A stretch of DNA of 64,000 nucleotides, taken from positions 1-64,000 of the forward strand of contig JARKNV010000002.1 in assembly GCA_029976065.1 (NCBI GenBank), given 5' to 3'. Below are positions 41,041-57,575 of this stretch, in pieces. Position numbers and translations under genes: made by a program. Positions within the stretch are counted from its first letter, which is position 1. Each line of letters starts with the position of its first letter. The stretch is from Selenomonadales bacterium (lineage in GTDB: Bacteria; Bacillota; Negativicutes; Sporomusales; UBA7701). The notes beneath the pieces are model-generated. The model worked only from the letters and a program-made list of their open reading frames with translations, ran no database searches and had not been told where the DNA came from.

Positions 41041-41067
41041 CTAGAAAACACAAAGGGGGGAATATTT

Positions 41068-42189: not shown

Positions 42190-42240
42190 ATGCCGGATAT
42201 GAAGGCTACGGCCGACGTATTCAAAACAGCTACGCAGTTT
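42190..42240. other. Left attachment region (attL) of the intervening element
   Basis: Host coding sequence up to GCCGA (42211-42215) is followed by element sequence starting CGTATTCAAAACAGC. The five bases GCCGA recur at the right end. The exact crossover dinucleotide cannot be placed within them. Confidence 0.75.
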
Positions 42241-42293
42241 ACTATGGAGGAAAAACGAATGGACTCATGCTCCAACTACAACTTAATAAAACG

Positions 42294-42326
42294 AAAACGC
42301 CGAGGGCTGCAACCCTCGACGTTTTC
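42294..42326 (+). terminator. Terminator near the left element end
   Basis: AAAACG-CGAGGG and CCCTCG-CGTTTT arms around a 5-base loop. It would stop transcription from the host SPOCS promoter inside the element. Confidence 0.82.
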
Positions 42327-42358
42327 TGACCTGCTGGCTGTCGCACCAACCAGCAAGC

Positions 42359-42381
42359 TATATACGGTAATACCGTATATA
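42359..42381. promoter_or_regulatory. 23-bp perfect palindrome, probable operator
   Basis: TATATACGGTA and TACCGTATATA flank a single central A. It sits between two terminators at the left end of the element; a repressor site for a nearby promoter is the simplest reading. Confidence 0.5.
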
Positions 42382-42465
42382 TATTATACCCCACACACTT
42401 GGAAATTTCAAGGGGGTATCGTCTATGACGCACTCGTTTTATAGACAGGCATGGCGACAGTCAAC

Positions 42466-42508
42466 AGGACAAGCGTGGTTAAGGGAACAACACGCCTGTC
42501 CTTTTTTG
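42466..42508 (+). terminator. Terminator with long arms
   Basis: AGGACA-GCGTG and CACGC-TGTCCT arms, followed by TTTTTT. A short ORF (42425-42592) overlaps it and is therefore unlikely to be a gene. Confidence 0.78.
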
Positions 42509-42509
42509 A

Positions 42510-43010
42510 TGGCCGCAGCGCGGCCCAGGAGGACATCAAAAACCGCCCGGCCCATCCCCGGGGGCAACGCCGTTAGACGGGGAGCCGACTGAGCCATCAA
42601 ACTTTTACGGTGTGGTAAACCGTACCGAACCGGGTGTCGGCCCTGTCCTGGCGGCTCCTCTGGAGCCAAGGGCGCGCTGTGAAAGCTGATTACTTAGGGC
42701 TATCACGCCAGACCGGAAGCCCTCCGAGCAGCGTGCCCTGCGTTTCCCTTGTGGGGAAACGCAGGGGGGGGACTGGGGTGCGCCGCAGAACCGCCGACTG
42801 TGGTCGGGTAGGCCGCACCAGCCGACCCGCAGGTGCGAGAGCCGTCAGCCGTCCACCAGGCGGCCGAGAAAGAGACAAAAAAGAAAATGGGGGTATTCCC
42901 AGAGGGGGGATACCCGCGCCGATTATCCACAGCGCCGTTCTCCAGCCTACTTCCCGCGAATCAGGTCAACAACCCCGCCGTTGCGCCTGCGGCGCGTAAT
43001 CAAAGGAATA
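42510..43010. other. GC-rich structured noncoding stretch
   Basis: About 500 bases without a convincing gene. It holds several strong hairpins: CCTGCGTTTCCC / GGGGAAACGCAGG (42737-42765) and GGGTATTCCC / GGGGATACCC (about 42893-42918), plus AC-TTTTACGG-type small stems near 42605. A 15-mer GCCGTTCTCCAGCCT (42932 region) recurs at 47641. It could be a structured RNA, an origin or a transfer region. Confidence 0.4.
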
Positions 43011-43026
43011 GTAGGAGATGATTACT

Positions 43027-43506
43027 ATGACAACTTCACTGAATATACGACCTGCCCACCTACTCAACGCACCTCTGGCCGTCCGTCCACTCCAGGGTTT
43101 GGCCTGGATATGTATTTTTGGCGCTCTCCTCGTCGCCGCCAGCCCGGAAACTGGTCGTTCCTGGCTGACCCTGGCCACCGGCGCCGGGTTCCAACTGCTG
43201 GCTACCTCCATTTTCGCAGGCTTGGCCTCTCTTTGGCGCGGCCCGTTTACTCAGTGGTGGCGCATTGCCGCCGCCGCGTCCGTGGCCCCGGCGGTGGTTC
43301 TAGCGGCCTGTGTCGTGCTCCCGTTCACCCCCGAATGGCTCCAATTGGCCGCCCAGGGCGGCGCGGCGGCCCTGGTGCTGCTTTATACATACCAAGGACA
43401 CAGCTGGAGAGGTGCCCTGGTCGCGGCCGGGGCGCTGCTGGTCATGAGGGGGATAATGATGTCGATTTTTTATAGCTATTGGATGTTTGTCTTACTTCAA
43501 GTTTAA
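43027..43506 (+). CDS. Small membrane protein of the element
   Basis: Protein of 159 residues with five hydrophobic segments (LQGLAWICIFGALLVAA, LTLATGAGFQLLATSIFAGLA, IAAAASVAPAVVLAACVVL, LAAQGGAAALVLLYTY, ALLVMRGIMMSIFYSYWMFVLLQV). No family recognised. ATG 43027 has good spacing to TAGGAG (43012); ATG 43018 would be too close. Confidence 0.7.
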   Translation: MTTSLNIRPAHLLNAPLAVRPLQGLAWICIFGALLVAASPETGRSWLTLATGAGFQLLATSIFAGLASLWRGPFTQWWRIAAAASVAPAVVLAACVVLPFTPEWLQLAAQGGAAALVLLYTYQGHSWRGALVAAGALLVMRGIMMSIFYSYWMFVLLQV

Positions 43507-43736
43507 TATAACCCCGCTGATTTTGGCCCTCGAGGGGGCCTCTTTTATTTATCGAAGCCAGCGTTTAAGTCGGTTCGCCGCTCTCTTTGCTAACAATATC
43601 GCCAGCATTGTTAGTTGCCATTTTCGCAAGTCGGAGGAATATGTTTGAATTTGTAGAAATTAATGTATGTATTAGTGATGATCTCAACTACTGCGCTTTG
43701 CATTGAGTCTATAATTTAAAGAGGAGATGCATAACG

Positions 43737-43985
43737 ATGGTTTGGGTAAAGGTAATAATTTTCTATCCGATGCTCTGGCTTCGTGGGCTTTTTCTTTTGG
43801 CAAGCAATATATTAGGTGGTTTCTTTTTTATAGGGGGTCTTATCTCCTGGATCGCCGGCACCGATAAGTGGATGATCCTCGTTGGATTTGGCTTAAGTTT
43901 TACGTTCTTTATCTTACGACACTTTTACGATCAGATTTTGCTGAAACTTAATCCTACCGGACAAGAATTATACCTATTCCAATAA
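43737..43985 (+). CDS. Small membrane protein of the element
   Basis: Protein of 82 residues with two or three hydrophobic segments (YPMLWLRGLFLLASNILGGFFFIGGLISWIAG, WMILVGFGLSFTFFILRHF) and a C-terminal soluble tail. AAGAGGAG lies eight bases before the ATG. AT-richer than the host genes. No family recognised. Confidence 0.68.
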   Translation: MVWVKVIIFYPMLWLRGLFLLASNILGGFFFIGGLISWIAGTDKWMILVGFGLSFTFFILRHFYDQILLKLNPTGQELYLFQ

Positions 43986-44318
43986 CAGTAGATTTAATAA
44001 AAGATAGGCCGCATAAAAGTGCGGCTCGTTTTGCGTCCCTTTTCCGATAGTTGGAAATAACCGGACATAAAAAAGGGGGGGTACAGGGGCTGGCCCCTGT
44101 GGCTGTCGACATCGCCATGGCCGGGCTTGGGAGCGGTGGTAGAGCCCCGGGTGTAGGTCCGGTCATGGGCGGTAGCAGATCCACTTCTCCCTGTCCAAGC
44201 GCCCGCGGCATGTCGAGGTTGTTGGCCAATGAACGCGGAGACAAGGCCGGAGAACGGCGCGGCAGACGAGAGTTGTGAAACGAGAAAAGCAGCCCTAATT
44301 CGGCTGCTTTTCTCGTGT
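43986..44318. other. Intergenic stretch with hairpins and a convergent terminator
   Basis: No gene seen over 333 bases. It contains a hairpin ACAGGGGC / GCCCCTGT (44083-44100) and a terminator AAAAGCAGCC / GGCTGCTTTT (about 44285-44310) that serves the minus-strand operon ending at 44319. Confidence 0.5.
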
Positions 44319-44486
44319 TCATTCAAACCGGTATTCGATTATACTCCTGATTCTTTCCACAGCGCTCTTTATTATGAAATCTTCGAACAACTCTTTTGCA
44401 GCTATTGCTACCATTAGCGCGACAAGGATCATTGTAATGTACTCGATTATCCCCTGCCCGCGGCGTCCCAACCAGAGGATTTTCAT
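44319..44486 (-). CDS. Flp-type pilin-like peptide encoded by the element
   Basis: Peptide of 55 residues: basic leader MKILWLGRRGQG, then IIEYITMILVALMVAIAAKELFEDF, matching the Flp pilin plan (leader ending in Gly, hydrophobic helix with Glu-Tyr at positions 3-4 of the mature part), and a short charged tail. The host Flp (15825-15980) has GQGMVEYGLIL at the same place. Start chosen by the ATGA overlap with the 38-residue gene before it. It may be a satellite pilin for the host Tad machine. Confidence 0.72.
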   Translation of the reverse strand: MKILWLGRRGQGIIEYITMILVALMVAIAAKELFEDFIIKSAVERIRSIIEYRFE

Positions 44487-44599
44487 GATTTTCGAATAGC
44501 TTGGACGATTTTTCTGGCCTGCTCGTCGCCCGTTACCAGCGCCACCGGCGTGACGCCGGCCGCCTCGATGCCGATGGTGATATAAATGGCCAATTCCAT
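44483..44599 (-). CDS. 38-residue peptide gene upstream of the pilin-like gene
   Basis: ORF MELAIYITIGIEAAGVTPVA... of 38 codons with GGGAGG well placed upstream (44610-44615) and its stop overlapping the next start (TCATGA, ATG at 44486). Translational coupling suggests that it is real. No similarity recognised; no signal peptide. Confidence 0.55.
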   Translation of the reverse strand: MELAIYITIGIEAAGVTPVALVTGDEQARKIVQAIRKS

Positions 44600-44618
44600 A
44601 CACAAATCCTCCCGAAGC

Positions 44619-45278
44619 TTACAGGGAAACCTGGGCTATGGCCCGGATAATCTGTTGAGCAGCTGTTTTGTCCCAGACCCACGGCGTAACCGGACATAGG
44701 CCGGCAGCATCAAGGTCGATTGTCGAAAACAATTCGTCAATTACGCGGTCACGGTGTTCATCGGTTTCAAACAGATCAGTATTGATTACTATCAAGTCGC
44801 CCGAGCCGTCCCAAATAGGGATTGGCTCATATTTTTTTAGGTCCGAGTAGGCGCTCTCATTGTCAGTATCGGCCAGGAACGTGCACCCCCGGGCTTCTAA
44901 ACGTTTTTTAGAGAGTGCCGGGAAAATGGCATAAACCCAGGCGTTATCATCGTCATCCCAGATCCTCAACCTGCGTTCGATACAGTATTGCCGAACTGAT
45001 TGTGCAACCCTGAACCGCCGCTCGTCCCTGCTCTGGTAACGCTGCCGCCGGGGGTCTTCGGACTGATCTGCGCCCGAATCCTGAATGGGGGCAACCTTTT
45101 TTTGCACGGTTTTTTCGATCTGATTAAAAGATGTCTGGCTCCTGGTGGGACGAACCAGAGCCAGCAGAGCCAATTGGCTGGCGTCGGCTGGGGGTAGCAA
45201 CTGGTACGGTATCCCCCGATTAGTCAATTCGCGAATCACCTCCGCAATCCGCTCGGAGTCACGATTTTTGCTCATCAT
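44619..45278 (-). CDS. Hypothetical element protein, 219 residues
   Basis: Soluble protein: MMSKNRDSERIAEVIRELTNRGIPYQLLP, an Arg/Gln-rich charged stretch (DPRRQRYQSRDERRFRVAQSVRQYCIERRLRIWDDDDNAW) and a C-terminal domain with SGDLIVINTDLFETDEHRDRVIDELFSTIDLDAAGLCPVTPWVWDKTAAQQIIRAIAQV. Start set by AAAGGG upstream. It overlaps the upstream gene by 20 bases and precedes the 38-residue and pilin-like genes. Function not recognised. Confidence 0.65.
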   Translation of the reverse strand: MMSKNRDSERIAEVIRELTNRGIPYQLLPPADASQLALLALVRPTRSQTSFNQIEKTVQKKVAPIQDSGADQSEDPRRQRYQSRDERRFRVAQSVRQYCIERRLRIWDDDDNAWVYAIFPALSKKRLEARGCTFLADTDNESAYSDLKKYEPIPIWDGSGDLIVINTDLFETDEHRDRVIDELFSTIDLDAAGLCPVTPWVWDKTAAQQIIRAIAQVSL

Positions 45279-45825
45279 TGTCAACCCTTTCTGTAAGTTT
45301 TTTTTGCTGGTCACGTCGCTTTCGCTCCTCGGTCATCACCTCCCTAAGGTAGACCTGGTTCAATTTTTCAAAACGCCAATCCCTACGGCTCCGAACAACT
45401 GAAGCGAGCTGCCGCCAAGAAAACCCGGCACGGCGCATCTCCTCCAGTTCGTCGTAGTGGTTGATGAGCCAGCTTTTTTTTGGGGCCGTCTTCTGTAGGC
45501 TGGCCTCCTTGACTCGCTCTAACTGGCGCTTGTAGTGGATTTTCCGTTCCTCCGGGGTCATGGCCGCCAGGAATCGGTTAGACCGGAGCGCGGGGTCCAA
45601 TCTCTGCATCTTTTTTGTGGCCAGTAGTAGACAGCCGTAGCTGTATGTGGCCTTGTGATCGGGGTCAAAATGGGCGCCCTTGTGCTGCAAATACAAGTCA
45701 GTTTGGAGTTTCATGAGTTCGATTTTTTCCTGTTCGGACATTTTGGCTCGGTAGTTTTCCAGTTTTTGACGGTCGGCTTTGGTTAGTCCCGTCATCTCCT
45801 CTAGCCAGGTCAGGTCATAGTCCAT
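45259..45825 (-). CDS. Hypothetical element protein with possible helix-turn-helix
   Basis: Charged, helical protein of 188 residues (MDYDLTWLEEMTGLTKADRQKLENYRAKM). A stretch LEEMRRAGFSWRQLASVVRSRRDWRFEKLNQ (near residues 125-155) has the spacing of a DNA-binding helix-turn-helix, and a KLTER basic tail follows. First gene of the four-gene minus-strand operon. No family recognised. Confidence 0.65.
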   Translation of the reverse strand: MDYDLTWLEEMTGLTKADRQKLENYRAKMSEQEKIELMKLQTDLYLQHKGAHFDPDHKATYSYGCLLLATKKMQRLDPALRSNRFLAAMTPEERKIHYKRQLERVKEASLQKTAPKKSWLINHYDELEEMRRAGFSWRQLASVVRSRRDWRFEKLNQVYLREVMTEERKRRDQQKKLTERVDNDEQKS

Positions 45826-46581
45826 GTCACTCCTCCTCTCAGCGTCTCGATTCGCCTTATTGCCACGCCCGTCTCAAGTGGCGCCAATTGCGCCACTGGC
45901 GCCGGGACCGAGGGGGGCGGACAAAAAAGCACTCAGGTTCTCGTTAATAGTATACCGTTACGCCCCCTCGGCCCGGTGCCACCGCGTTTGGTGGGGGGTG
46001 AGGCTGATTTTGGCAACTTGCGGCGCGGCCGGGCCGTTGGGTCGGGGTGGCGCGAGGCTAGGGCTGGAGCCGGCGGGAGGGTGCCGGCGACAGACCGGGA
46101 TGAGGTAGCCCGTCAGCCGCAGGCTGACGGGCTACCTCAAGAAAGCACCCAAGCCCAAATCACCCAGGTCGGGGACAGGGGCTGTTTTGCTTTTGGCACT
46201 CGGACAAGGATACAATTATATTGTCAGCTTATGCTTTTAACATAGATAGCTGCAGGGGAGACGCTGAAGGCCCTACCGGCTCCGCCGAGCCGCTTCACCG
46301 GCGGACGAAAAAAATCCGGCCCTCACGAGGCCAGAGGAGTGATGAGTATTGAGATCCCTGGCGCCCGACCAGGCAAATAATCGGGCATCACGGCCGCTCC
46401 GGCCAAGGTCGAAGAGGAACTAGGCTTGTCACCTAGTTAGGAGATCAAAGGACGCCCCGGTAGTCCCCGGGTTGCCAAAAGACGGAAGAATCCGCGCACG
46501 ACATGCGTGGAGGTGTTAAACACATTGTTTCGCCAGGGTCCGGGCGTTTTAAATTCGGGTCATTAATGTGTGCAACAATAA
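45826..46581. other. Structured noncoding stretch upstream of a recombinase-like gene
   Basis: About 750 bases without a convincing gene. It has GTGGCGC / GCGCCAC (45877-45897), the perfect 17-bp-arm inverted repeat at 46102-46138, CGGCTC / GAGCCG (46278-46293), AACTAGG / CCTAGTT (46418-46438) and CCCCGG / CCCCGGG near 46455. The series of stems from 46250 to 46500 may be one folded RNA. Confidence 0.4.
46102..46138. repeat. Perfect inverted repeat with 17-bp arms and 3-base loop
   Basis: GAGGTAGCCCGTCAGCC and its exact complement around GCA. No T run on either side, so not an ordinary terminator. Possible cruciform, origin or recombination site. Confidence 0.75.
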
Positions 46582-46619
46582 TGTTACACGATATTGTTAC
46601 ACGATATTGTTACACAATA
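46582..46619 (+). repeat. Three tandem 13-bp iteron-like repeats
   Basis: TGTTACACGATAT occurs twice in direct succession and a third copy ends TGTTACACAATA, just 13 bases before the gene at 46632. Phased 13-bp units suggest a protein-binding array. Confidence 0.78.
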
Positions 46620-46631
46620 GGGAGGCTGCCG

Positions 46632-47603
46632 ATGGGCCGCATGCCCAGCGTTGTCAAACAAGTGACCGAACTCATCAACGGTGAAATAGACTGCCGTGGC
46701 GAGTCAAAATACGAAGCGAAACAGGGCGCAATTGCGGAAATCCGGGCTCAGGATGGCACTGCGACCAGCAACGAAATCAATTCTCGAATAGGCATTTTTA
46801 GTAATTCGGCGGCTCGGCATGCCCATGGTACGTGGGTAGACATGGCTAAATATATCAAAGAGGAGTTCGGGATCAAAAATATTTATGATACTCGCCCAGA
46901 ACACGTCGCGGATTATCTAAATTACAGACTCGAGAAGGGTGACTTAACAGTTCGGTCGTTTAATAACATTTGCGGGTACGCCGAAAAATATGGCGTCGCG
47001 CTGCGGATGGAGAGCGGCGACACGACCGGTCGCTACAGTTTCCATGGCGCCGTCGAACCCTGCCGGCAGGATGGGAAGATCAGTCTGCCAGCAAACGAAG
47101 TCGCTAACCGAAAATATGACAACCCCGCTCAGGTGAGCGGGGCCATGGCAAGCCCAATTCATACTGTGGCGGCTGAACTTATGTACCAGGGAGGCGCCCG
47201 GATCAGCGAAGTCTCCGAACTGCGGGCGGATCGGAATATGCTGGGTATAAATGCCGATGGAATGGGAGAAATAAAGCTCACAAACACAAAAAACGGCCAA
47301 GAGCGCACTATGTACACTCCGGCCGCCAATTATAAGGCTGTAGAGGCAATTCAAGCGGAAAACGGAGGCGTTTTTCGCTTCGACCAATCAGAGTTTCGAA
47401 CCGATCTGATCCGGGCCTGTGAGGCCACCGGCGAACAGTACACCGGGGCCCACGCGTTTCGTTATAATTTTGCTCAAAGCGAGTTTCAGAAAAATCTGGA
47501 CAAAGGCATGAGCGTAGCCGAGGCTAAGCAAGCAGTGGCCGAGAAAATGGGGCATACTCGGGCAGATAAGGATACTACTGATCGATATTTGGGGCGGGCG
47601 TAA
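46632..47603 (+). CDS. Tyrosine-recombinase-like (phage integrase family) protein
   Basis: Protein of 323 residues. An N-terminal SAM-like core-binding domain (SAARHAHGTWVDMAKYIKEEFGIKNIYDTRPEHVADYLNYRLEKG) is followed by a catalytic domain with the first Arg in MYQGGARISEVSELR (near residue 197), HAFRYNFAQ (HxxR equivalent, near residue 282) and MGHTRADKDTTDRYLG with the His and nucleophile Tyr near the C terminus. ATG 46632 follows GGAGG at 46621. Iterons lie just upstream. It may act on the element's own sites. Confidence 0.8.
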   Translation: MGRMPSVVKQVTELINGEIDCRGESKYEAKQGAIAEIRAQDGTATSNEINSRIGIFSNSAARHAHGTWVDMAKYIKEEFGIKNIYDTRPEHVADYLNYRLEKGDLTVRSFNNICGYAEKYGVALRMESGDTTGRYSFHGAVEPCRQDGKISLPANEVANRKYDNPAQVSGAMASPIHTVAAELMYQGGARISEVSELRADRNMLGINADGMGEIKLTNTKNGQERTMYTPAANYKAVEAIQAENGGVFRFDQSEFRTDLIRACEATGEQYTGAHAFRYNFAQSEFQKNLDKGMSVAEAKQAVAEKMGHTRADKDTTDRYLGRA

Positions 47604-47808
47604 GTCCGCGCAGCCAACTACGCCGCACTAGGCCGGTCGGGCCGTTCTCCAGCCTGATACTCCGTCAAGGCGCCAGCCTCGCCAGCCTGCGGCGCTTGGT
47701 CAGGGAAGGTTAGAGGGCTGCCTTCGGTGGTAACAGGGTGGCTTGGTGGGGGACGAGTGGACATAGGGGGTTCCCCCTATTACCCCCCCCTCTGCGCACA
47801 GTAATGAA

Positions 47809-47835
47809 AACCACCAGACTGAAAGTCTGGTGGTT
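47809..47835 (-). terminator. Terminator of the TPR gene
   Basis: AACCACCAGACT / AGTCTGGTGGTT arms around GAA; on the minus strand it is followed by TTTTC. Confidence 0.88.
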
Positions 47836-47843
47836 AACGATTT

Positions 47844-48320
47844 TCACTCCAAATATTTTTTGGCATGATCAGTATACTTGTCTTTTACATCACCTTTAAG
47901 TCGCAAATACTTTTTATATGCAGCAACTGCATTTTTCTCGTCATTAATACTTTCATAAATTAGGCCCATATAGTAAGATGAAGCATTTTGTGGATCATAT
48001 TGTACGGATGATTGAAAACACGCCATAGCGTCTTTTACATTACCCTTATGTAAAAATGCACAGCCTCGCAAGAGATAAGTATCAGAACGAACTTGATTAT
48101 TTATAAAATCAAACGATGTCAATGGTAGTTGAATTATGAGACCGGATAGCATAATTACTTCATCATCATTATTTGCATTGGAGGCTATTTCTAGCCTTTT
48201 ATTTAAGTCTTTTATCTGTGATATAGTGGTAATTGTATTATATACCCAAATTAGTCCGAACAATACGCAGACTGTGAGTATAATACCAATGCTAGATATG
48301 CCGCGCTGGTTATGAATCAA
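47844..48320 (-). CDS. TPR protein with prepilin-like N terminus
   Basis: Protein of 158 residues. The first 30 residues (MIHNQRGISSIGIILTVCVLFGLIWVYNTI) look like a prepilin leader: a short basic piece, Gly, then a hydrophobic helix; Glu at position 5 is missing. The C-terminal half has TPR pattern (TYLLRGCAFLHKGNVKDAMACFQSSVQYDPQNASSYYMGLIYESINDEKNAVAAYKKYL). TTG start after TTAGGAG. Clearly AT-richer than its neighbours, which suggests a different origin. Confidence 0.72.
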   Translation of the reverse strand: MIHNQRGISSIGIILTVCVLFGLIWVYNTITTISQIKDLNKRLEIASNANNDDEVIMLSGLIIQLPLTSFDFINNQVRSDTYLLRGCAFLHKGNVKDAMACFQSSVQYDPQNASSYYMGLIYESINDEKNAVAAYKKYLRLKGDVKDKYTDHAKKYLE

Positions 48321-48436
48321 TAGTTATCACTCCTAACCAATTAACATTTCGATATCTAGTTGTTATTATTTTACCATAAATACTAAATAACCCCAATATT
48401 CGGATGAAACACAATATAATTTTGTTACATTCAGGA

Positions 48437-48496: not shown

Positions 48497-48575
48497 CGTG
48501 TGCCTTACCAAAAGTATTAAAAAACCATGATATAATATAAATAGATACATTTGACAGAAAGGAGGTGGGCCAACC

Positions 48576-49127
48576 ATGGGCACAGTCGAACCCATCCGCG
48601 ACCCCCAAAAAATCGCGGCCATGAAAAAAATCCTCAAATCGGGCAGCGTCCGCGACTGGGTGCTGTTCGTGCTGGGCATCAATTCGGGGCTGCGGATATC
48701 GGACCTGCTGGCCCTCCGGGTGGCCGACGTTCTGGGTCGGGAGCGAGTCACTCTACGGGAACAGAAGACGGGGAAAGCGAAGGACTTTCCGCTATCGGAG
48801 ACCTGCAGAAAAGCACTACGTGAATACCTGGCCGCGATCGGCCTCTCGGCTGATGCCTGGCTATTCCCCAGCCGAAAAGGAGGAAGGCCAATTTCCCGCG
48901 TCCAGGCCTATCGTATCCTCAACGCGGCCGCCCGCACGGTCGGGATTACTGAGCCGATCGGCACGCACACGCTGCGTAAAACGTTCGGATACTGGGCGCA
49001 CCAACAGGGCGTAGACATCACGCTGATTCAAAAACTATTAAACCACTCAGCCCCCAGCGTCACACTGGCCTACATCGGGATCACCAGGGACGATATGGAC
49101 CAGGTCTATATCAACCTCAACCTTTAG
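48576..49127 (+). CDS. Small tyrosine recombinase (integrase)
   Basis: Catalytic-domain-only recombinase of 183 residues: Arg I in NSGLRISDLLALR (near residue 43), Lys in the TLREQKTGKAKDFPL beta hairpin, HTLRKTFGY (His-x-x-Arg, near residue 140), LLNHSAPSVTLAYIG with His and the nucleophile Tyr. The core-binding N-terminal domain of XerC/D is absent; stand-alone members of this size are known in Firmicutes genomes and plasmids. AGGAGG is well placed. Confidence 0.9.
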   Translation: MGTVEPIRDPQKIAAMKKILKSGSVRDWVLFVLGINSGLRISDLLALRVADVLGRERVTLREQKTGKAKDFPLSETCRKALREYLAAIGLSADAWLFPSRKGGRPISRVQAYRILNAAARTVGITEPIGTHTLRKTFGYWAHQQGVDITLIQKLLNHSAPSVTLAYIGITRDDMDQVYINLNL

Positions 49128-49308: not shown

Positions 49309-51516
49309 ATGCGGAAACTCGTCTCAGCCGTGCTGGCCAGTGTCGTCCTGGCCACCTGCACTCCGGCAGCAGCTCTGCCAGCGTTAACCTATGACCCGAC
49401 GCAGACTAACCCGTATTACCCCGCCTGGCCGGGAAACCCGCTCTGGCAACAACAACAGCTTAACAACGTCTCGTCAAATGACCTCAAAAAATTGCTACTA
49501 GCCGGGTTCCTGGTTCGCCTGTTCACCGGCGGCAACCAGCAGCAGCCGACCACCGTCGGCGGAACAGTGCAGACGGTGGACGCAGGCACTGTCGCTGGCC
49601 AGCGCACCGGCGGGATTGTCTCCACGCCAGGGAATCAGTCCCGGGGCGTCCGAATCTACATCCCGCCCGGCGGGGACCAATCAAACGGCCTCTTTCTGCT
49701 CACCCCGGCTGCGGACCCTCCGTACCCGTTGGAGGGCAAACCCCTCCAACTCCGCTTGGGTCTTACCATGGGCGCCGGCGTCCAGGTGGTGCGGATGGTT
49801 GTTGACAATCAGTCGATCACCCCGGGAGCCACTGTAACCCTCGAACAGTCTGCGACAGCCGGGCAGTACCGCAAACCGTTTACGGTGGTTGTCAGGAGGG
49901 CCACGGACGGCGCCGCTGGAGTAGTTCAGGGCTATGTTGACTACAGCGTCGCTAAATTTGGTGCATGGGCGAGCTCACCGAACGGGCCTAACAGCGAAAC
50001 ATACTCCACTCCCGAGAGCCCGGTCGGCCAGATTGAAAGAAACGCCGACATTTACGTGGCAAACGCCGACGCTCGTTCCGCCGATTACTCTGCCTCCGTG
50101 AGCGGAAAGATTACCGGGAAAACCCAGACGACAAGCGGCTGGGAGCTGACAGTTACCGATGACGTCGGTAAGACTATCAAGATTAATACCGGTCGGCTCC
50201 CGGCGGGTTTCGATGTCGGCACGGACATAAAAGCCTCCGGCAAATTGCGTCGAGGCGCTGATGGCCGACTAATGATAGATGCCACGGCCGTCACCGACAA
50301 GGGCGCAGCGGCCAAGGCTAAAAAAACCGGCACGGCCGCCATGGAGGCTTTGAGAGCCAAGGCTGCTCAGAACATGAAAAAGTTAGACCCCGTCGGCAGC
50401 CTGGCCGATACGCCCAAACCTGCCAGCTGGGGCACGGTGGCCAGCGGCAGCGGCGGGGACGGCGGAGGCAACGGCACCACAGACAACAACCAACAGAGTA
50501 CGGCCGTGCCCGGCGGGGATTCCGCTACGTTCAAGCGACTGGTCAACAATTGGCTGCACGCAGCCGGCCTCGATTCTGTCCCAGTCGTTCCGGCTGAGAT
50601 GTTAAACGAGCAATCTCCCGGCATGCGCTCGGCCCGCTCAGTTTTCAGCACGGCGGCCGCCGCTCTTGGTATCGTAATTGGCTCGCTTGCTATGGGCCTG
50701 GGTCTGATTCCGGCCGGCGGGATAGCGTTCGCGGCGTCAGTGATCGGGCTGGGAATTGCCGGGATGGCAGGCGATCTGAGTGACATTGGCTCGTTTATCA
50801 TGGGCGACGGATTCGGGGGATATATGCTCGACAACCATCTCGGCCAGCTCGTCCTGGAGGTCGGGTTGGGCGCTATGACGGGCGCTGTTATGCCCGTCAT
50901 AGGTCGAGCGCTGCTGAGGATGATGCCGAAGTCGATCGCAAGTGTTTTCGACGGCGGCGCCACAAAAACCGCAAAGGCATTTTCCGAACGCCTAGGGATA
51001 GCCGGCGGCGCCGACAACGTTCTCAAAGCGCAGGCCGCCGAGGTTGCCGAGTCGATCGGCGGTCGGGCCGGCATGAAAATCGCCAGCGAGCTTGCCGCAG
51101 CGAATCCCCGGCTTACCCCCCGTCACATGAACCGGCTGCAGAAAGCGGCCAAGAAAACCCTGTCCGCCGGGTCCGACGCCGCGGCCGAGGCGGTTGCCCA
51201 GGCGCAGGCGACCAACGCGCGGATAGCGTCCCTCCGATCCGCCGGGATCGAGTTCCCGGCAAACCTGGCCGAAACGGCCGTACCTCAGCTTCCCCGCAGT
51301 TTTGAGGCGGCCCGGGCTGTCAATCAGGCCGTCCGCCAGACAGCACAAGAGGTCGCGGCTGCACCGGTGGGGTTCGGCGAAAAGGCGTCGGCAGCCGCCG
51401 CCCGAACTGTCGTTTATAACGCCTCTGCAGCCGTTCAGGGAGTGGTGACGGGGGAGGTGCGCCACGCAATAAACGGCGGCGAAAACGCAATAAATCAGCG
51501 CCTGAAAAATAAGTGA
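49309..51516 (+). CDS. Large exported protein of unknown function (735 residues)
   Basis: Signal peptide MRKLVSAVLASVVLATCTPAAA, then a region of short unstructured stretches (NPYYPAWPGNPLWQQQQL, GGNQQQPTTVGG) and beta-rich segments. The middle has SGKITGKTQTTSGWELTVTDDVGKTIKINTGRLPAGFDVGTDIKASGKLRRGADGRLMIDATAV, an OB-like fold by pattern. Residues ~465-560 contain two hydrophobic, Gly-rich segments (TAAAALGIVIGSLAMGLGLIPAGGIAFAASVIGLGIAGM), and the C-terminal third is Ala-rich and helical. I recognise no family. GGAGG precedes ATG 49309. It forms an operon with 51529-53148. Confidence 0.72.
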   Translation: MRKLVSAVLASVVLATCTPAAALPALTYDPTQTNPYYPAWPGNPLWQQQQLNNVSSNDLKKLLLAGFLVRLFTGGNQQQPTTVGGTVQTVDAGTVAGQRTGGIVSTPGNQSRGVRIYIPPGGDQSNGLFLLTPAADPPYPLEGKPLQLRLGLTMGAGVQVVRMVVDNQSITPGATVTLEQSATAGQYRKPFTVVVRRATDGAAGVVQGYVDYSVAKFGAWASSPNGPNSETYSTPESPVGQIERNADIYVANADARSADYSASVSGKITGKTQTTSGWELTVTDDVGKTIKINTGRLPAGFDVGTDIKASGKLRRGADGRLMIDATAVTDKGAAAKAKKTGTAAMEALRAKAAQNMKKLDPVGSLADTPKPASWGTVASGSGGDGGGNGTTDNNQQSTAVPGGDSATFKRLVNNWLHAAGLDSVPVVPAEMLNEQSPGMRSARSVFSTAAAALGIVIGSLAMGLGLIPAGGIAFAASVIGLGIAGMAGDLSDIGSFIMGDGFGGYMLDNHLGQLVLEVGLGAMTGAVMPVIGRALLRMMPKSIASVFDGGATKTAKAFSERLGIAGGADNVLKAQAAEVAESIGGRAGMKIASELAAANPRLTPRHMNRLQKAAKKTLSAGSDAAAEAVAQAQATNARIASLRSAGIEFPANLAETAVPQLPRSFEAARAVNQAVRQTAQEVAAAPVGFGEKASAAAARTVVYNASAAVQGVVTGEVRHAINGGENAINQRLKNK

Positions 51517-51528
51517 GGAGGTACGAAA

Positions 51529-53148
51529 ATGTTTAAAAAAATTTTTGCAAGCTTGCTCATCCTTGCCATGACCACAACATGGATGATCCCGGTTGTTGCG
51601 GCGCCATCGATATCAACCACATCAGGAATTAATAACCCTGTGCTGTGGGGGGGATCGCCCGGAACGTCCACAACCGGCGGAGTGACCCTCGTTAGCCCAA
51701 CGGCGGCGCAGATACAGGCCATCGTCCAGAACCCCACGGGATACGTCGAAACGCTGAAGGCGGCTGCGGCTTACCAGATGGCCCAGGCAGTGCTTCAGGG
51801 GCTGGGGCTGAGCAATATTGGAGTCGGAACCGGTCAACTGCTCTGCTCGGACTGCCCATCAGAAATGTCGACCAACGCCGACCTGGCGACGTTGGTCATG
51901 CAGGCCTTGTTTCAAGGTAAGACCCTCCCCTCTGACACGCTCGCCACAGTCGGTGGCCTGCTAAACGGTGGCACAAATACAACCCCCATCGACATTGCTG
52001 CGTCCACTGTAGACCCGCTTGATTTTCAGCTGCCGAGCACAGAGGGAACTATCGGGAATCTGGTTTCCGGCACCGGAGGCCTCGGCGGCATATCTGGTTC
52101 GGGGCTCGGCACTGGAGACCTGGGTGGATTCGGAGGTATATTCGGAAACGGCTCCGGAGACATTTCCGGCTCCGGCCTTGGGTCGGGCACCGCCGGCGGC
52201 GGTCTGCCTGGCGGACTGCTGAACTCTGCCGACGGCACCTGCCTGACGTATTCATACAGCGCGAACCATTCCTTCGTCAAGGGGAAGGCAACTATTTCCC
52301 CCGCATTTCCCCTCAAAGACAAGTCTTTCACAATAACGGCTTTAGGCGAGGCCAGCCCGCCAGCCGGTTCGGTATCTTTCGGCCTGAATCCGGTGGTGGA
52401 AACAATAACCAAGGACACGGCCGGCAACTACACTAAAACATACGCGATCCAATACACCTACTACCCGCCGAAGGCATCGCCCCAGGGGGGGACGCTCACC
52501 ATCAAGGTCGCCTACAGTGTCGCTGAAGTGAGCGCCTTCGGAGGAGCATCCGGAGGGAACTATGACCCCACGGGTCAGTCTGGCGGCACGACCGTGAGTT
52601 CACTTGACCTCGGCGGTGGCTTCTCGGGCTTCGGCGGCGTAAATGGCGGCAATCAGCTCGCCGGGCAAGCCGGCGCTGGACAATCAAGTGGCATCTTCGG
52701 GACGGGTGCCGACTCGGCGGGGACGCTAAATCTCAAACAGGCCCTCGGGGTGCTCACCGGCGGCGTGGATATGCCGTTCGGCGCGATGACAAACGGGGCA
52801 ACGAACGTCAATATCTCTATTCCCGGCTTCGACTCTTTTGGGAGTAACCTACTGTCTATCAATGATACCATCCATAACCTCCTTTTGGGCATGGATTCGC
52901 CCAAGACCGAACAGCAGCAGCGGAACTCAGTCGTAGCGGTCCAGTCCAACCAAACGCCGGACCAGGTGCGTAGGCAAAATTTTGGCAGCATGACTGGCAT
53001 CCTGAAAACTTCGGCGTCTCTGCTTATGGCCCAAGGCAAGAGCGCCAAAGACATCCCGGGCCTTTACGACAAAGATTCTGCTTACACCTCACCTAAGGAC
53101 GCATGGGACATGAACAGATTAACTAATTACACCGCGGCGTTTGAATAA
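51529..53148 (+). CDS. Gly/Ser-rich exported protein (539 residues)
   Basis: Signal peptide MFKKIFASLLILAMTTTWMIPVVA, an N-terminal helical part with one LCSDCP Cys pair, a Gly-rich repeat zone (residues ~175-240, units such as GLGGISGSGLGTGDLGGFGG), a beta-rich domain (LTYSYSANHSFVKGKATISPAFPLKDKSFTITA), a second Gly-rich zone and a helical C-terminal part. No family recognised. It follows 49309-51516 by 12 bases, so both are probably exported together, perhaps as surface or filament components. Confidence 0.7.
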   Translation: MFKKIFASLLILAMTTTWMIPVVAAPSISTTSGINNPVLWGGSPGTSTTGGVTLVSPTAAQIQAIVQNPTGYVETLKAAAAYQMAQAVLQGLGLSNIGVGTGQLLCSDCPSEMSTNADLATLVMQALFQGKTLPSDTLATVGGLLNGGTNTTPIDIAASTVDPLDFQLPSTEGTIGNLVSGTGGLGGISGSGLGTGDLGGFGGIFGNGSGDISGSGLGSGTAGGGLPGGLLNSADGTCLTYSYSANHSFVKGKATISPAFPLKDKSFTITALGEASPPAGSVSFGLNPVVETITKDTAGNYTKTYAIQYTYYPPKASPQGGTLTIKVAYSVAEVSAFGGASGGNYDPTGQSGGTTVSSLDLGGGFSGFGGVNGGNQLAGQAGAGQSSGIFGTGADSAGTLNLKQALGVLTGGVDMPFGAMTNGATNVNISIPGFDSFGSNLLSINDTIHNLLLGMDSPKTEQQQRNSVVAVQSNQTPDQVRRQNFGSMTGILKTSASLLMAQGKSAKDIPGLYDKDSAYTSPKDAWDMNRLTNYTAAFE

Positions 53149-53189
53149 CAAGGGCGGGGCAAATGCCCCGCCTAAAAACTTTCTGCCCC

Positions 53190-53243
53190 TTGTTTGTAAT
53201 GGGAAAATGTGCTATTATATAAATATAAATATTTATATTTATA
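53190..53243 (+). promoter_or_regulatory. Promoter with AT palindromic operator (copy 1)
   Basis: TTGTTT (53190-53195), 17-base spacer, TATTAT (53213-53218), then a perfect 26-bp palindrome at 53218-53243 built from TATAAATATAAAT and its complement. Bases 53223-53243 are identical to 55167-55187. It precedes the 65-residue gene and the peptidase. Confidence 0.72.
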
Positions 53244-53260
53244 TTTTGGGAGGGATTGAT

Positions 53261-53458
53261 ATGAAGGACATTTTGGTCAACCTATACATCCGGCTGCACC
53301 CGAGACTGGCTCATCAGCTAGGGCGAATTCCAACCGACACAGAAATGTCCAGATACCTGGGCTGTACCGAGGAGGAAATTTGTCAAATTAAGCAGAAATT
53401 GGCAGAAATGAGTCTGGCGGAAGTCGAAGATATATATTTTGCCATGGAGGCGATATAA
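53261..53458 (+). CDS. Small helical protein, probable DNA-binding (65 residues)
   Basis: MKDILVNLYIRLHPRLAHQLGRIPTDTEMSRYLGCTEEEICQIKQKLAEM has the look of a sigma-factor-like or helix-turn-helix module (tdtEMSRYLGCTEEEICQIK). AGGGA upstream of the ATG. It overlaps the peptidase start by one base (TAATG). Function not recognised. Confidence 0.6.
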   Translation: MKDILVNLYIRLHPRLAHQLGRIPTDTEMSRYLGCTEEEICQIKQKLAEMSLAEVEDIYFAMEAI

Positions 53459-54531
53459 TGAACAAAATTCGTACGAAACTGCCTAAAATAGCGGTTTTGC
53501 TGATGATGGTTTTAAGCCTGAGCCTGCTAGCCCCAGCGCCGGCAGCTCAGGCGGCAGATGCTGGACAGATACTTGCCTATGGCGCCCTGGCGTATATTAT
53601 GTTGGACGCGCAGTTGCAAAACATCGACCAACAGCAGATGGCCGTACTGAATGTCCGCAAATCCCAGACCGGTGTGGAGCAAGACCCTGTTGTAATCCAG
53701 CGGTTCGTAGATGTCGTGACCAAACTGGAGGGGGCGAATAAGCTCAAATATAATAGCATGGTCTACCCCACGCCCGACCGCACTTTGAACGGGTTCTGCG
53801 GTCCGGCACATGTCATCGCGATTAACCGCGGCGCGTTCGACCATCTAACTGACGATGAGGTGGCGTACCTAATCGCCCACGAATACGGCCATTCCGAAAA
53901 CAACCATATCAACAAAGGGCTTAGGGCAAAGGTGGCCGTAGGGTTGCTGGTCGACTTATATCTTTCCAAAAACCAAAACTATGTCAGCCAATGGTTCGGC
54001 AACGTCGCTGCCAACCTCTATTCGGCGGAGGTCACGAGCATCGCTATGGAGTGGGAGGCCGACAATGCGGCGTTTGCATACGCCACCACGGCGCGTTTCA
54101 ACCCCGGTGGCGGTGCGGCTCATATGTTCAGGGCCAGGGCTATGTACGGCGATGGCTATACGAACGAGCTGGGCCTGAGGATAAAAGGCTATAATAACCA
54201 CCCCCCGACCAGCGAGAGAATCGCGAATTACCATCGACTGCTGACTGAGTACTCCGGTGGCCATGTGACGGTCCGGGGAGACAAAACCGTTATTGTTGAC
54301 AACCTGGAAGTTATAACTCCCACCGGCACCAAAACCCGGCTGGCCGGCGAGCGTGCATATTTGATCGCCGGGAACCTAGCCCGCGTTTTTCATGACAATG
54401 CCTTGGATACGGCAACTATAGCGGAGGATGGAGATGTCTGCATAGGAAAATACCGAATCATGACGCCGCTGCCGGGTGATCCGCCAGCCGAAGAGATTGT
54501 CTATCGCATAAATGAGATAACCGGCAAGTAG
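53458..54531 (+). CDS. Exported M48-like zinc metallopeptidase
   Basis: Protein of 357 residues: signal peptide (KIAVLLMMVLSLSLLAPAPAAQAAD), then the zinc motif AYLIAHEYGHSENNH (HExxH, near residue 140) and the downstream third ligand in AMEWEADNAAFAYA (ExxxD, near residue 200), followed by PPTSERI, as in M48 peptidases. The C-terminal part is unique. It would act outside the cytoplasm. Regulated with the 65-residue protein by the operator at 53218-53243. Confidence 0.85.
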   Translation: MNKIRTKLPKIAVLLMMVLSLSLLAPAPAAQAADAGQILAYGALAYIMLDAQLQNIDQQQMAVLNVRKSQTGVEQDPVVIQRFVDVVTKLEGANKLKYNSMVYPTPDRTLNGFCGPAHVIAINRGAFDHLTDDEVAYLIAHEYGHSENNHINKGLRAKVAVGLLVDLYLSKNQNYVSQWFGNVAANLYSAEVTSIAMEWEADNAAFAYATTARFNPGGGAAHMFRARAMYGDGYTNELGLRIKGYNNHPPTSERIANYHRLLTEYSGGHVTVRGDKTVIVDNLEVITPTGTKTRLAGERAYLIAGNLARVFHDNALDTATIAEDGDVCIGKYRIMTPLPGDPPAEEIVYRINEITGK

Positions 54532-54592
54532 GTAAAGACAAAGAAGAAGGGTGGTGAGACGCTTAATAAATCAATAAAAGGAGATGATTTCT

Positions 54593-55102
54593 ATGAGCAT
54601 ATTCAAAAAGTTACTCGAAAATTTGGGCTGGTTCAACCCTGAACCCGAAATCGCGGTGTTGGTCGACGCTGAGAATATATCGCCAAAGGTCGCGGAATAC
54701 GCGATTGACCAGGCTCGGCAGATGGGCTCCGTCCGGATTATCCGGGCATATGCAAATTGGATCGACAATAACCCTCAAGGCTACGTTGATTTGGTCTCCA
54801 GGGGGCTTCATCGCGTTCAGGTGGACAAACTCCGCGGCCGGAAAAATTCGACGGATATCGCATTGTCGGCTGAAGCGGCCTATCTCGCCGGGCGAGGGAA
54901 GGTCAATACGTTCGTTTTGGTATCTGGCGATCAGGATTTCGTACCTCTGGTACAGACCCTTAAACTTGCCGGTTGCACGGTGATCGGCGTTGCGGACCGC
55001 CAGGCCGCCCTGGATCTGCGTCCCGCATGTCACCGATTCCTTATCGCCGAGATAGCCCCGGCCAGGCGATCTCTAGCAGCACCAGTTGTAGCAGTCGGGT
55101 GA
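54593..55102 (+). CDS. NYN-domain protein (LabA/DUF88-like, PIN-fold ribonuclease)
   Basis: Protein of 169 residues with the acidic residues of NYN nucleases: IAVLVDAENIS (Asp, near residue 22), RKNSTDIALSAEA and VLVSGDQDFVPLVQ (Asp pair). The short amphipathic N terminus (MSIFKKLLENLGWFNPEPE) precedes the domain. ATG 54593 fits AAAGGAG at 54577; 54584 is too close. No matching antitoxin is adjacent. A role in RNA turnover is inferred from the family. Confidence 0.85.
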   Translation: MSIFKKLLENLGWFNPEPEIAVLVDAENISPKVAEYAIDQARQMGSVRIIRAYANWIDNNPQGYVDLVSRGLHRVQVDKLRGRKNSTDIALSAEAAYLAGRGKVNTFVLVSGDQDFVPLVQTLKLAGCTVIGVADRQAALDLRPACHRFLIAEIAPARRSLAAPVVAVG

Positions 55103-55135
55103 AGTAAGAGGCAGGAAAACCCTGCCTCTCCTAAT

Positions 55136-55187
55136 TTGCGCGACTACCGGGGCCGAGGTATAATGGATATAAATATTTATATTTATA
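55136..55187 (+). promoter_or_regulatory. Promoter with AT palindromic operator (copy 2)
   Basis: TTGCGC (55136-55141), 17-base spacer, TATAAT (55159-55164), then the 21 bases 55167-55187 identical to part of copy 1. The layout is the same at both promoters: operator at the transcription start. It controls the small regulator at 55202. Confidence 0.74.
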
Positions 55188-55201
55188 CCTGGAGGCATTG
55201 T

Positions 55202-55384
55202 ATGGCAGGCAAGCGCGAAAAATTTGTTGATAAACATGTGTTAAAGTCATTCTATATTCGGGCGGATCTGTGGCCACAGTTTGATGACCTTGGTAAGTCG
55301 TTCGGTCATGGTGCAAAAACGGATTTGATTAACGAGGCAATTGAGCTTATATTGAAAAAATATGCGAAGGAGAAAGGATATTAG
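55202..55384 (+). CDS. Small ribbon-helix-helix-like regulator (60 residues)
   Basis: MAGKREKFVDKHVLKSFYIRADLWPQFDDLGKSFGHGAKTDLINEAIELILKKYAKEKGY: a beta-strand (VLKSFYIRADL), helix, loop, helix (KTDLINEAIELILKKY) pattern like CopG/Arc. GGAGG before the ATG. It lies just below the operator that also occurs at 53218, so it may repress itself and the peptidase genes. Confidence 0.68.
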   Translation: MAGKREKFVDKHVLKSFYIRADLWPQFDDLGKSFGHGAKTDLINEAIELILKKYAKEKGY

Positions 55385-55426
55385 TAAAATGACCGCCTAG
55401 GAGGCCCGCAGACGCGTTTTGTAACG

Positions 55427-55460
55427 GGGGTAGGACAAATATACCTACCCCTCTATTTTT
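55427..55460 (+). terminator. Terminator
   Basis: GGGGTAGG / CCTACCCC arms with a 9-base loop, then TCTATTTTTTT. Confidence 0.88.
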
Positions 55461-55645
55461 TTGCCCCTAATCGGCAGTTGTTTACAGAAAAAGTTGTGGC
55501 CACCCATGACGGTATAATACTAGCGAGGACAACAAAATTTTTTTTTTGAAAATCGGATAAGGGCCATTCACCAAAATATCATTAAATCAGGAAAAGCAAA
55601 ATCACGCAGGTGCGAGCATATCTTTTATTGGGGGAGGGGTGGCCA

Positions 55646-55828
55646 GTGTCGAAAAAATGTGTGATTTCATATGGCCGCCCAACCCCTGACGGGAATATCG
55701 ATAGAACTGTACCGGTCGAGGTTGTCGAAAAGATGGTGGCATCGGCGGCAGCTATGCTGGCCAGGCGGTCCACTCGTCGGGAAATTGAGCCCCCCAAAAT
55801 CGAAAACAACCTGAAGGCATCACGATGA
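55646..55828 (+). CDS. 60-residue protein upstream of the serine recombinase
   Basis: GTG start after GGGGAGGGG: a SKKCVISYGRPTPDGNIDRTV N-terminal part (strand-rich), then helix VEVVEKMVASAAAMLARRS and a basic tail. No similarity recognised. Its size and place directly before a large serine recombinase resemble the known excision factor SprB (58 residues) of SPbeta, so a role as directionality factor is possible. That idea rests on position only. Confidence 0.6.
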   Translation: MSKKCVISYGRPTPDGNIDRTVPVEVVEKMVASAAAMLARRSTRREIEPPKIENNLKASR

Positions 55829-55843
55829 TGCCTTATTTTTTTC
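55814..55843 (+). terminator. Terminator overlapping the stop of the 60-residue gene
   Basis: AAGGCATCA / TGATGCCTT arms with loop CGA, then A and eight T. The TGA stop (55826-55828) is part of the stem. It separates the small gene from the recombinase. Confidence 0.9.
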
Positions 55844-55892
55844 GCTATGTTACAATAAACAAAGATAGCAAGAGTAACCAGGAGGCAGCTTT

Positions 55893-57434
55893 ATGAGGGT
55901 AGGTCTTTACGCCCGGGTGAGCACGGCCGAGCAGGCTGAAAAGGGCTATTCTTTGGATACTCAGTTGGAGGCTTGTAGAAATAAGGCCGCTGAGCTTGGT
56001 GCCCGTGAAGACGAAATTGAAGAGTTTGTCGACGACGGATATAGCGGTGAATTCCTTGAGCGGCCGGCCCTCGACAATCTACGTAGTCTAGTAGAAGAGA
56101 AACTTTTAACTCATATTGTTATTTATGATCCCGATCGGCTGGCTCGTAATCTGGTACATCAGCTACTTATCACTGATGAGATCCAACAAGCCAGATGTGA
56201 ACTACACTTTGTATCAGTATCTTTCGAGCCTTCTCCCGAGGGGAAATTGTTCTATGCTATCCGCGGGTCAATCTCGGATTATGAAAAAGAAAAGATCAAG
56301 GAACGGTCGCGGCGCGGCAAACGCGGTAAAGCCCTAAAAGGAAGAATAATCGGCAATGCTAAACCTTTCGGGTACAACTGGGATTCCGAAACCTGCCTTT
56401 ACACAATTAACGAAGAAGAGGCCGAAATTGTTCGCCTCATTTACGATTTGTGCGTTAATGAAAAAATGAGTACCAACGCCATATATCTTGAACTCCGGCG
56501 CCGCTGTCTCACTGGACGAGCGCGGCCACGTAAAGAAAAAAATAAAAAGGGGGAAAAAACTCAGTCCGGATCCCTTGAAAGTGTTGAGCCAAAGTTCATG
56601 CACCCTACGACGATACACAGGATACTAACAAAGTCCATGTATTGCGGTGAGTATCAGCAGTTCCGTGAAACTACCCGTAGGATAGGGCAGAAGAAACGGA
56701 CAATCCAGAAAAATGATAAGGACAAGATCGTCACTATTAACATACCTCCTATTGTTAGCCGTGAGACCTTTGAGGCGGCAAAAAAACAACTTGATAGCAA
56801 CCGGGTTACGCGTAGCCAAACAAAAACCGAGTACCTACTTCGCGGGGTGCTATATTGCCCGGAGTGCCATCGTAGACTTGTCGGCACAAATCTTGTCGGC
56901 CACCGAAAACGTAAAGAAGATAAACTCTACAAATATTACTATTGCATTAGCCGTATCAGCTCAGGATTGCGAAACGAAAAGCCTTGTACAACCGCTTACC
57001 GAATACCGTCTGAGGAACTAGATATTGCCGTTTGGGATTTTCTTGTCGATCTTGTTCGGGAAAACAAAACGCTAGAGGAGATCGTGGAAAAACAGGAACC
57101 TAACGATATTGAGCAGCAGCTGGTCGACCTTGTCAAACAGAAGCAAAGCTTAGAAAAAAGGAGAAAAGAAACATACGAACTGTTCCGGGACGGCCTGGCG
57201 CCTGAGACCGAAGCTAGGCGAGACCTTGAGGCATTAAAGAGAAAAATTGAAATCCTAGACATGCGTATTGCATCCCTCCAAAACCAGAAACCACGGCGAA
57301 AAGCCTTGCCAGTGGAACAGATTTTAAACGCATCCAGCTTTGAGGAGAGAAGGGCGGTTATTCAGGGGCTCGGTATCAAAATTTTCGCTCAAAAAGATCC
57401 AAGCAACGGTTACGTTCACTTTTGGTTCGAATAA
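55893..57434 (+). CDS. Large serine recombinase (SpoIVCA-like)
   Basis: Site-specific recombinase of 513 residues. N-terminal resolvase domain with the catalytic Ser in GLYARVSTAEQAEKGYSLDTQ (residue 10) and DRLARN and RGSISDYEKEKIKERSRRGK; recombinase domain (NAKPFGYNWDSE, EAEIVRLIYDLCVNEKMSTNAIYLEL, TIHRILTKSMYCGEY); a zinc ribbon (YCPECHRRLVGT ... YYYCISR ... KPCTTAY); and a C-terminal coiled coil (residues ~395-470). It resembles the enzymes that excise sigK skin elements. It ends 112 bases from the right end of the element. The TACAAT at about 55851 may be its -10 box. Confidence 0.95.
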   Translation: MRVGLYARVSTAEQAEKGYSLDTQLEACRNKAAELGAREDEIEEFVDDGYSGEFLERPALDNLRSLVEEKLLTHIVIYDPDRLARNLVHQLLITDEIQQARCELHFVSVSFEPSPEGKLFYAIRGSISDYEKEKIKERSRRGKRGKALKGRIIGNAKPFGYNWDSETCLYTINEEEAEIVRLIYDLCVNEKMSTNAIYLELRRRCLTGRARPRKEKNKKGEKTQSGSLESVEPKFMHPTTIHRILTKSMYCGEYQQFRETTRRIGQKKRTIQKNDKDKIVTINIPPIVSRETFEAAKKQLDSNRVTRSQTKTEYLLRGVLYCPECHRRLVGTNLVGHRKRKEDKLYKYYYCISRISSGLRNEKPCTTAYRIPSEELDIAVWDFLVDLVRENKTLEEIVEKQEPNDIEQQLVDLVKQKQSLEKRRKETYELFRDGLAPETEARRDLEALKRKIEILDMRIASLQNQKPRRKALPVEQILNASSFEERRAVIQGLGIKIFAQKDPSNGYVHFWFE

Positions 57435-57519
57435 GTTGTTTGATGAAGGATTTTCCAACATTATGGCGAAATAATCAACTAACTCTATAGTAAGCTAATC
57501 GCAGACTCGGTTACTGCGC

Positions 57520-57575
57520 AATTTCGTATATGTAGGAAAGCGGTTAGCCGATATGTTGGTTGAGTTCGTGGATTA
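57520..57575. other. Right attachment region (attR) of the intervening element
   Basis: Element sequence ending GGAAAGCGGTTA is followed by GCCGA (57547-57551) and then host coding sequence TATGTTGGTTGAGTTC, in frame with the SPOCS gene. The GCCGA matches that at 42211-42215. Confidence 0.75.

Follow-up and report, generated by a model that had tools for sequence, protein, structure and literature searches.

The split gene and its locus

The stretch of DNA analysed here (the window) comprises 64,000 nucleotides, positions 1 to 64,000 of contig JARKNV010000002.1 from the Selenomonadales bacterium assembly GCA_029976065.1. In it, a gene for a protein with a SPOCS and an SH3 domain (the SPOCS-SH3 gene, SPOCS2) is split by a 15,336-bp element, the right end of which holds an intact large serine recombinase (LSR). 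The features that define the split are the following.

41068..41748, + strand: SPOCS1, uninterrupted paralogue and first gene of a presumed operon (Pfam SipL/SPOCS, 45.1 bits)
41785..42221, + strand: 5' part of SPOCS2, with its ATG start at 41785 and including the TT core
42220..42221, + strand: probable crossover dinucleotide TT in the left attachment site (attL)
42222..57557: intervening element, 15,336 bp; the gene is uninterrupted in relatives
55893..57434, + strand: LSR of 513 amino acids, with Resolvase, Recombinase and zinc beta ribbon domains above cut-off and without internal stop
57556..57557, + strand: probable crossover dinucleotide TT in the right attachment site (attR)
57558..58041, + strand: 3' part of SPOCS2, with the SH3_3 domain

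The reading frame of the left half follows host sequence up to about 42221 and then runs through element sequence until a stop at 42444. Joining of the two halves in register takes out 15,336 bp and gives 306 codons in frame. The left piece alone gives a cut match to the Pfam SPOCS (SipL) family (profile positions 2-68 of 78, 51.8 bits), which extends to positions 2-76 (56.9 bits) in the joined protein; SH3_3 is contributed by the right piece and covers positions 2-54 of 54, so that the restored product has complete SPOCS and SH3 domains. SPOCS1 ends 36 bases before the start of SPOCS2, and because of this short distance the two genes probably form one operon. No second whole copy of the SPOCS-SH3 gene was found in the draft genome itself, no tRNA was found in the window, and no RNA family reaches its gathering threshold within 38000-62000.

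The uninterrupted gene in relatives

With the joined protein as the query, the gene is whole in all five other genomes of the family (78-95% identity), and the named best matches are in Sporomusaceae or 'Selenomonadales' assemblies. Among the 27 other genomes sampled from the order, 26 match once in a single frame over at least 264 residues; the 27th (G009) has a contig-edge piece of the gene alone and is not assessable. The gene halves abut in 16 of 16 named loci, and the DNA alignment has no indel at the junction in any of 21 relative rows, several of which are one genome under two identifiers. In a phylum sample of 398 genomes, the matches listed outside the window genome are all partial, covering the SPOCS or the SH3 region. 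The neighbouring genes (yabG, two CAP-like genes, SPOCS1, an SDH Clp-fold protease, a HipA-like kinase and a cyanophycinase-like gene, with the CAP and cyanophycinase labels given by eye) are collinear in most relatives, which indicates insertion into a conserved locus.

The window genome is a 3.42-Mb draft of 82 contigs, 87.9% complete and with 6.0% contamination, in which an assembly chimera could have put unrelated DNA into the gene. However, both junctions lie in one contig, the flanks are collinear with relatives and the ends of the element show the anatomy of recombinase attachment (att) sites, and we regard a chimera as very improbable. It is close to certain that the insertion of the element into the SPOCS-SH3 gene is real. 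A preliminary description of this DNA had placed a site-specific element in the gene, restored the frame by exact joining and assigned a SpoIVCA-like LSR to the right end; the uninterrupted relatives, the att anatomy, the 306-codon junction without indel and the recombinase domains uphold all of this, and its expectation that relatives lacking the element would carry an intact gene agrees with the 26 order genomes and 16 named loci.

Crossover point and attachment sites

Two short sequences are common to both ends of the element, GCCGA and a TT located six bases rightward. The point of exchange is probably TT (42220-42221 and 57556-57557), and the element is therefore best written as 42222-57557. 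When the reconstructed attP was scored for inverted repeats around the eight shared dinucleotides, TT gave the best result (15 of 24 pairs), followed by GC (12), with the remainder at 8 or fewer. Of 20,000 base shuffles, 0.015% reached 15/24 at the TT centre; when any of 80 centres was allowed, 1.2% of 2,000 did so, and 8 of 15,200 positions inside the element reach the same value. In attL, GCCGA is followed by CGTA, which two of the closest relatives (L004 and L005) also have. The TT joint codes for ADVLVE, which fits the relatives, and the GCCGA joint for ADMLVE, differing at residue 145 (V versus M); this residue is V in ten, A in five and I in one of the 16 named loci, and M in none.

The preliminary description had put the junction at GCCGA, which is probably wrong, as the attP repeat and the ADVLVE joint favour TT. 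A crossover within GCCGA, yielding ADMLVE, is unlikely, although the two ends share no identical stretch longer than GCCGA and attB scores better at GC (10/24) than at TT (8/24), making the sums of attP and attB nearly level (22 and 23). Apart from GC, the dinucleotides of GCCGA score 7 or less in attP, and GC is its own reverse complement, so that a GC core would not fix the orientation; the CGTA continuation of attL and the lack of M at residue 145 in the named loci likewise speak for TT. The attP reconstructed from the GCCGA joint also gives 15/24, but centred 9.5 bases left of that joint and thus outside GCCGA. With a TT core, GCCGA would belong to a recognition half-site found in both attB and attP. 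The predicted empty joint is ...GCCGACGTA-TT-GGTTGAG..., and the predicted circle joint is ...GCCGATATG-TT-CAAAAC....

Content of the element

The G+C content is 53% in the element and 61-64% in its flanks. The LSR gene ends about 0.12 kb from attR, and the other open reading frames (ORFs) include the following.

44319..44603, - strand: ORF weakly matching a class III signal peptide (below cut-off)
46503..47603, + strand: tyrosine recombinase-like protein, weak match below the Pfam cut-off
47844..48320, - strand: TPR protein
48576..49127, + strand: tyrosine recombinase catalytic domain, 183 amino acids
49264..51516, + strand: 750-residue protein without family match, signal-peptide-like start by eye
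51529..53148, + strand: 539-residue protein without family match, adjacent to the 750-residue gene, signal-peptide-like start by eye
53458..54531, + strand: M48-family peptidase
54584..55102, + strand: NYN-domain protein
55646..55828, + strand: basic 60-residue ORF (pI 10.0) just upstream of the LSR

The 60-residue ORF is, speculatively, a candidate directionality factor, from its size and place only, and 144 fetched loci contain no homologue of it. Further small ORFs of the element lie at 53141-53458 and 55136-55384. The 750- and 539-residue proteins have no match in Pfam, PHROGs, NCBIfam or PADLOC. Ten element proteins were compared with PHROGs, and none matched a phage structural gene; their matches are to integrase, invertase, transposase and unknown-function families and to one HNH-endonuclease family (E 0.009). 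A phage origin was rejected on this result and on the lack of viral-contig relatives of the recombinase and of the 750- and 539-residue proteins, in scans with single-protein queries that detect close relatives only. A plasmid origin was rejected as the 750-residue protein has no match in plasmids; the match of a 188-residue ORF (45259-45825) to one plasmid, from Trichlorobacter, is at 28% identity and too weak to use. A role as defence cargo was set aside as well, ten element proteins having no PADLOC match. The preliminary description had called the element skin-like, which holds for the mechanism and not for a prophage content.

The host gene: probable sporulation role and selection

The domain DUF3794 is equivalent to SPOCS. 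SipL of the Clostridioides difficile spore coat has this domain, under the name DUF3794 (PMC6436350). Two further features upstream of the split gene concern its expression.

38061..38942, + strand: yabG (sporulation protease), intact (TIGR02855, 346.5 bits, above cut-off)
41010..41045, + strand: promoter-like block CAC-N17-CATATATATAA-N-TAGA upstream of SPOCS1

The block is found with a variable spacer in 19 of 19 loci (the window and 18 relatives), the same loci from which the pattern was drawn. CAC and CATA at its spacing resemble sigK and sigE promoters. The yabG gene, 3 kb from the SPOCS operon, is described as sigK-regulated (PMC10747680). The SPOCS-SH3 gene is probably a mother-cell spore-envelope gene.

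The ratio of nonsynonymous to synonymous substitution (dN/dS) of the restored gene is 0.041-0.055 against the three closest genomes, compared with 0.061-0.089 for SPOCS1, 0.059-0.064 for yabG and 0.082-0.100 for SDH in the same genomes; singleton residue changes number 4 in the restored gene, 8 in SPOCS1, 9 in yabG and 11 in SDH. Against two more distant genomes the restored gene gives 0.12-0.14, like the values among relatives. As judged from these substitutions, the restored gene shows purifying selection. A low dN/dS would fit a gene still used after excision and a recent insertion alike, and cannot separate the two.

Related recombinases and other split genes

A tree was built from 29 recombinases of the order (L025 was dropped as it lies at the same place as L142). 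The SPOCS recombinase falls within a supported set of nine (99/97). The yabG-splitting recombinase of G024 (L089) is also in this set, as is one abutting the 3' part of sigK in G008 (L080). Judged by identity alone, the SPOCS recombinase is closest to the spoVK recombinase of the window genome (41%), and the spoVK recombinases group together as a set of 14 (69/98).

Of the 28 order genomes, 14 have the spoVK gene (TIGR02881) split at a common site, 11 have it whole and one has it apparently frameshifted; two give weak matches alone. The split genomes are the window genome (G000; locus L038, G000:C49 12330-17893), G001-G005, G008, G009, G015, G017, G018, G021, G022 and G024. In 11 fetched loci the two halves flank a related recombinase, and in three such a recombinase adjoins one half; the ten measured elements span 3.0-9.7 kb. 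We entered 11 of the loci for attP scoring, of which ten were scored and one (L073) dropped out; one GT ranks best in eight of the ten, with up to 19 of 24 pairs, the exceptions being L038, with GG above GT (14 versus 12), and L074, with four dinucleotides tied at 8. From this scoring, the spoVK element core is probably GT. Since these elements are related by descent, they count as one control of the att scoring and not as ten independent ones. No report of a spoVK interruption was found in open-licence PubMed Central full text.

In one genome, the spoVK halves (G017:C4 442892-443278, + strand, and 734636-735043, - strand) are on opposite strands and separated by about 291 kb, which suggests a large inversion through the element or a misassembly.

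The yabG gene, intact in the window, is split in G024 by about 3 kb with an LSR (L089 8642-12483), with residues 5-259 and 252-292 flanking, in the manner of yin in Clostridium botulinum. In G020 (G020:C141:14-1345), a yabG match ends at the same place as that of G024, beside a recombinase piece at the contig edge, and is probably a second case of split yabG. Among the 28 genomes, sigK is in two parts in eight (skin-like; G001, G007, G008, G009, G015, G017, G022 and G023), whole in 13, including the window genome, partial in six and not found in one. The sigK break of G017 is at a different place from the rest.

A proposed mother-cell excision switch

The arrangement would be explained as follows. 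An element without recognised phage structural genes appears to have been integrated by its own LSR at a TT-centred site in the SPOCS-SH3 gene of a Sporomusaceae bacterium. With the element in place, the first half of the gene would yield only a protein cut within its SPOCS domain and without SH3. During sporulation, the recombinase, assisted by a putative directionality factor, most likely recombines attL with attR in the mother cell, and this excision would free a 15,336-bp circle and restore the 306-codon gene, while the spore chromosome would keep the element. Mother-cell expression, the directionality factor and the sporulation-timed excision are the parts of this explanation that we infer. 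It is likely that the element's own recombinase can reverse the insertion. Because of the precedents (the spsM, gerE, sigK and kamA elements) and the lineage context, we consider it reasonably probable that the element acts as a mother-cell excision switch. The preliminary description had proposed a developmental switch of this kind, which is plausible and indirectly supported.

A number of observations weigh against such a switch. A reading frame broken by any site-specific insertion can be restored, so in-frame joining alone cannot show a developmental switch. The main weaknesses are a directionality factor not found by homology and a single occurrence. Fifteen ORFs of the element other than the LSR, small ones included, match none of the 144 fetched loci, in which the control queries match 62 (recombinase) and 16 (yabG). 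The interruption of the SPOCS-SH3 gene is seen in one of 28 order genomes, a draft assembly, and may therefore stem from a recent insertion whose excision is not regulated. Scored against the raw consensus, the SPOCS1 site does no better than chance, so that conservation is the sole evidence for the promoter-like block, and sigE/sigK-type sites near the recombinase and the candidate factor (55610 region) are at about chance level. The SPOCS recombinase is on a long branch, which makes its place in the tree unsure, and several recombinases of the set of nine lie at places without a visible split gene.

Several of these points would suit an alternative in which an ordinary recent mobile element knocked out a dispensable coat-type gene, with excision rare or otherwise cued and without developmental role. 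The single interrupted genome, the related recombinases away from split genes and the failure to find a directionality factor in the ORF comparison are all in keeping with it, as are the absence of the 750-residue cargo protein from all 27 other order genomes and the low dN/dS, which is also expected of a recent insertion. Nevertheless, related recombinases lie in or beside sporulation genes, the host sequence is undamaged on both sides of the element, and the spoVK split recurs at a common site in 14 of 28 genomes, which would be difficult to account for if these insertions did no more than abolish function. We judge this alternative to be possible and rather unlikely.

Beyond the excision switch at the SPOCS-SH3 gene, we tentatively suggest that Sporomusaceae and the order may have a recombination-gated mother-cell programme, in which related LSR elements split sigK, spoVK, yabG and the SPOCS-SH3 gene in combinations that differ between species, the SPOCS-SH3 element being a recent recruit. 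If so, one terminal cell would have to complete several independent excisions, all of them programmed, to build the spore envelope. In the papers cited here, the genes for which mother-cell programmed excision is described are few and belong to Bacilli and Clostridia. The coat-type candidate and the spoVK split in half of the sampled order genomes suggest that the phenomenon is commoner, and reaches more spore layers, than described. With a defined recombinase and predicted attL, attR, attB and attP, the switch is directly testable.

Comparison with known elements

Excision is reported for the elements in spsM, gerE, sigK and kamA (PMC4191935, PMC6957869, PMC5595907, PMC5025042). The element gin in gerE of Bacillus cereus ATCC10987 is likewise non-phage; it carries serine recombinase genes and interrupts a mother-cell gene, the in-frame reconstitution of which is reported in sporulation (PMC5595907). 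At 28.6 kb, gin encodes three serine recombinases together with GirX, a known factor (PMC5595907), whereas the SPOCS-SH3 element has one serine recombinase, two tyrosine-recombinase-like ORFs and another host gene. By its content, the SPOCS-SH3 element is nearer to the non-phage gin than to skin (PMC5595907). It shares with skin in sigK of C. difficile the LSR, the split sporulation gene and the restorable frame (PMC5025042), but differs in its host gene and in the lack of a matched phage structural gene, and sigK of the window genome is whole.

SPbeta in spsM and phi3T in kamA likewise lie within genes of the sporulation programme and bring their own integrases (PMC4191935, PMC6957869), and inverted repeats are reported for the phi3T att site (PMC4191935, PMC6957869). 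Both are prophages, in contrast to the SPOCS-SH3 element, the cargo of which has no phage structural gene match; the SPOCS recombinase is 29.6% identical to the recombinase of SPbeta-like phage records. The element yin in yabG of Clostridium botulinum is likewise a single-strain element in a coat-related sporulation gene (PMC10747680), although the host gene differs, yabG being whole in the window and split in the relative G024. The SPOCS-SH3 element thus joins a known kind of sporulation gene-intervening element, with a host gene for which no report as an insertion target was found in open-licence PubMed Central papers. The recurrent spoVK element may be more novel than the SPOCS-SH3 element.

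Additional observations

One further gene lies upstream of SPOCS1 in the window.

40519..40812, - strand: divergent cysteine-rich gene of 97 codons, without Pfam family

It has a sigE-type site matching at 13 of 15 positions (40906-40878; TAACACT-14-CATACAAT) in a largely conserved block. Sites of at least 13/15 number two on both strands of 18.2 kb (0.1 expected per strand), the second lying inside the element (55225-55197). The cysteine-rich gene is probably a sporulation gene without Pfam family.

In G001, a gene for an FAD-dependent oxidoreductase is split by 42.5 kb (G001:C1:1465256-1466305 and 1508820-1509077; L140 and L141), with a more distant LSR. The orthologue in the window genome is whole and is followed directly by another serine recombinase (L039 9693-11225). 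This third recombinase of the genome (contig C2) was considered as a further interruption and, since the oxidoreductase gene before it is whole, was not counted. The orthologue lies beside a D-Ala-D-Ala carboxypeptidase gene and spmAB-like genes, the latter named by eye.

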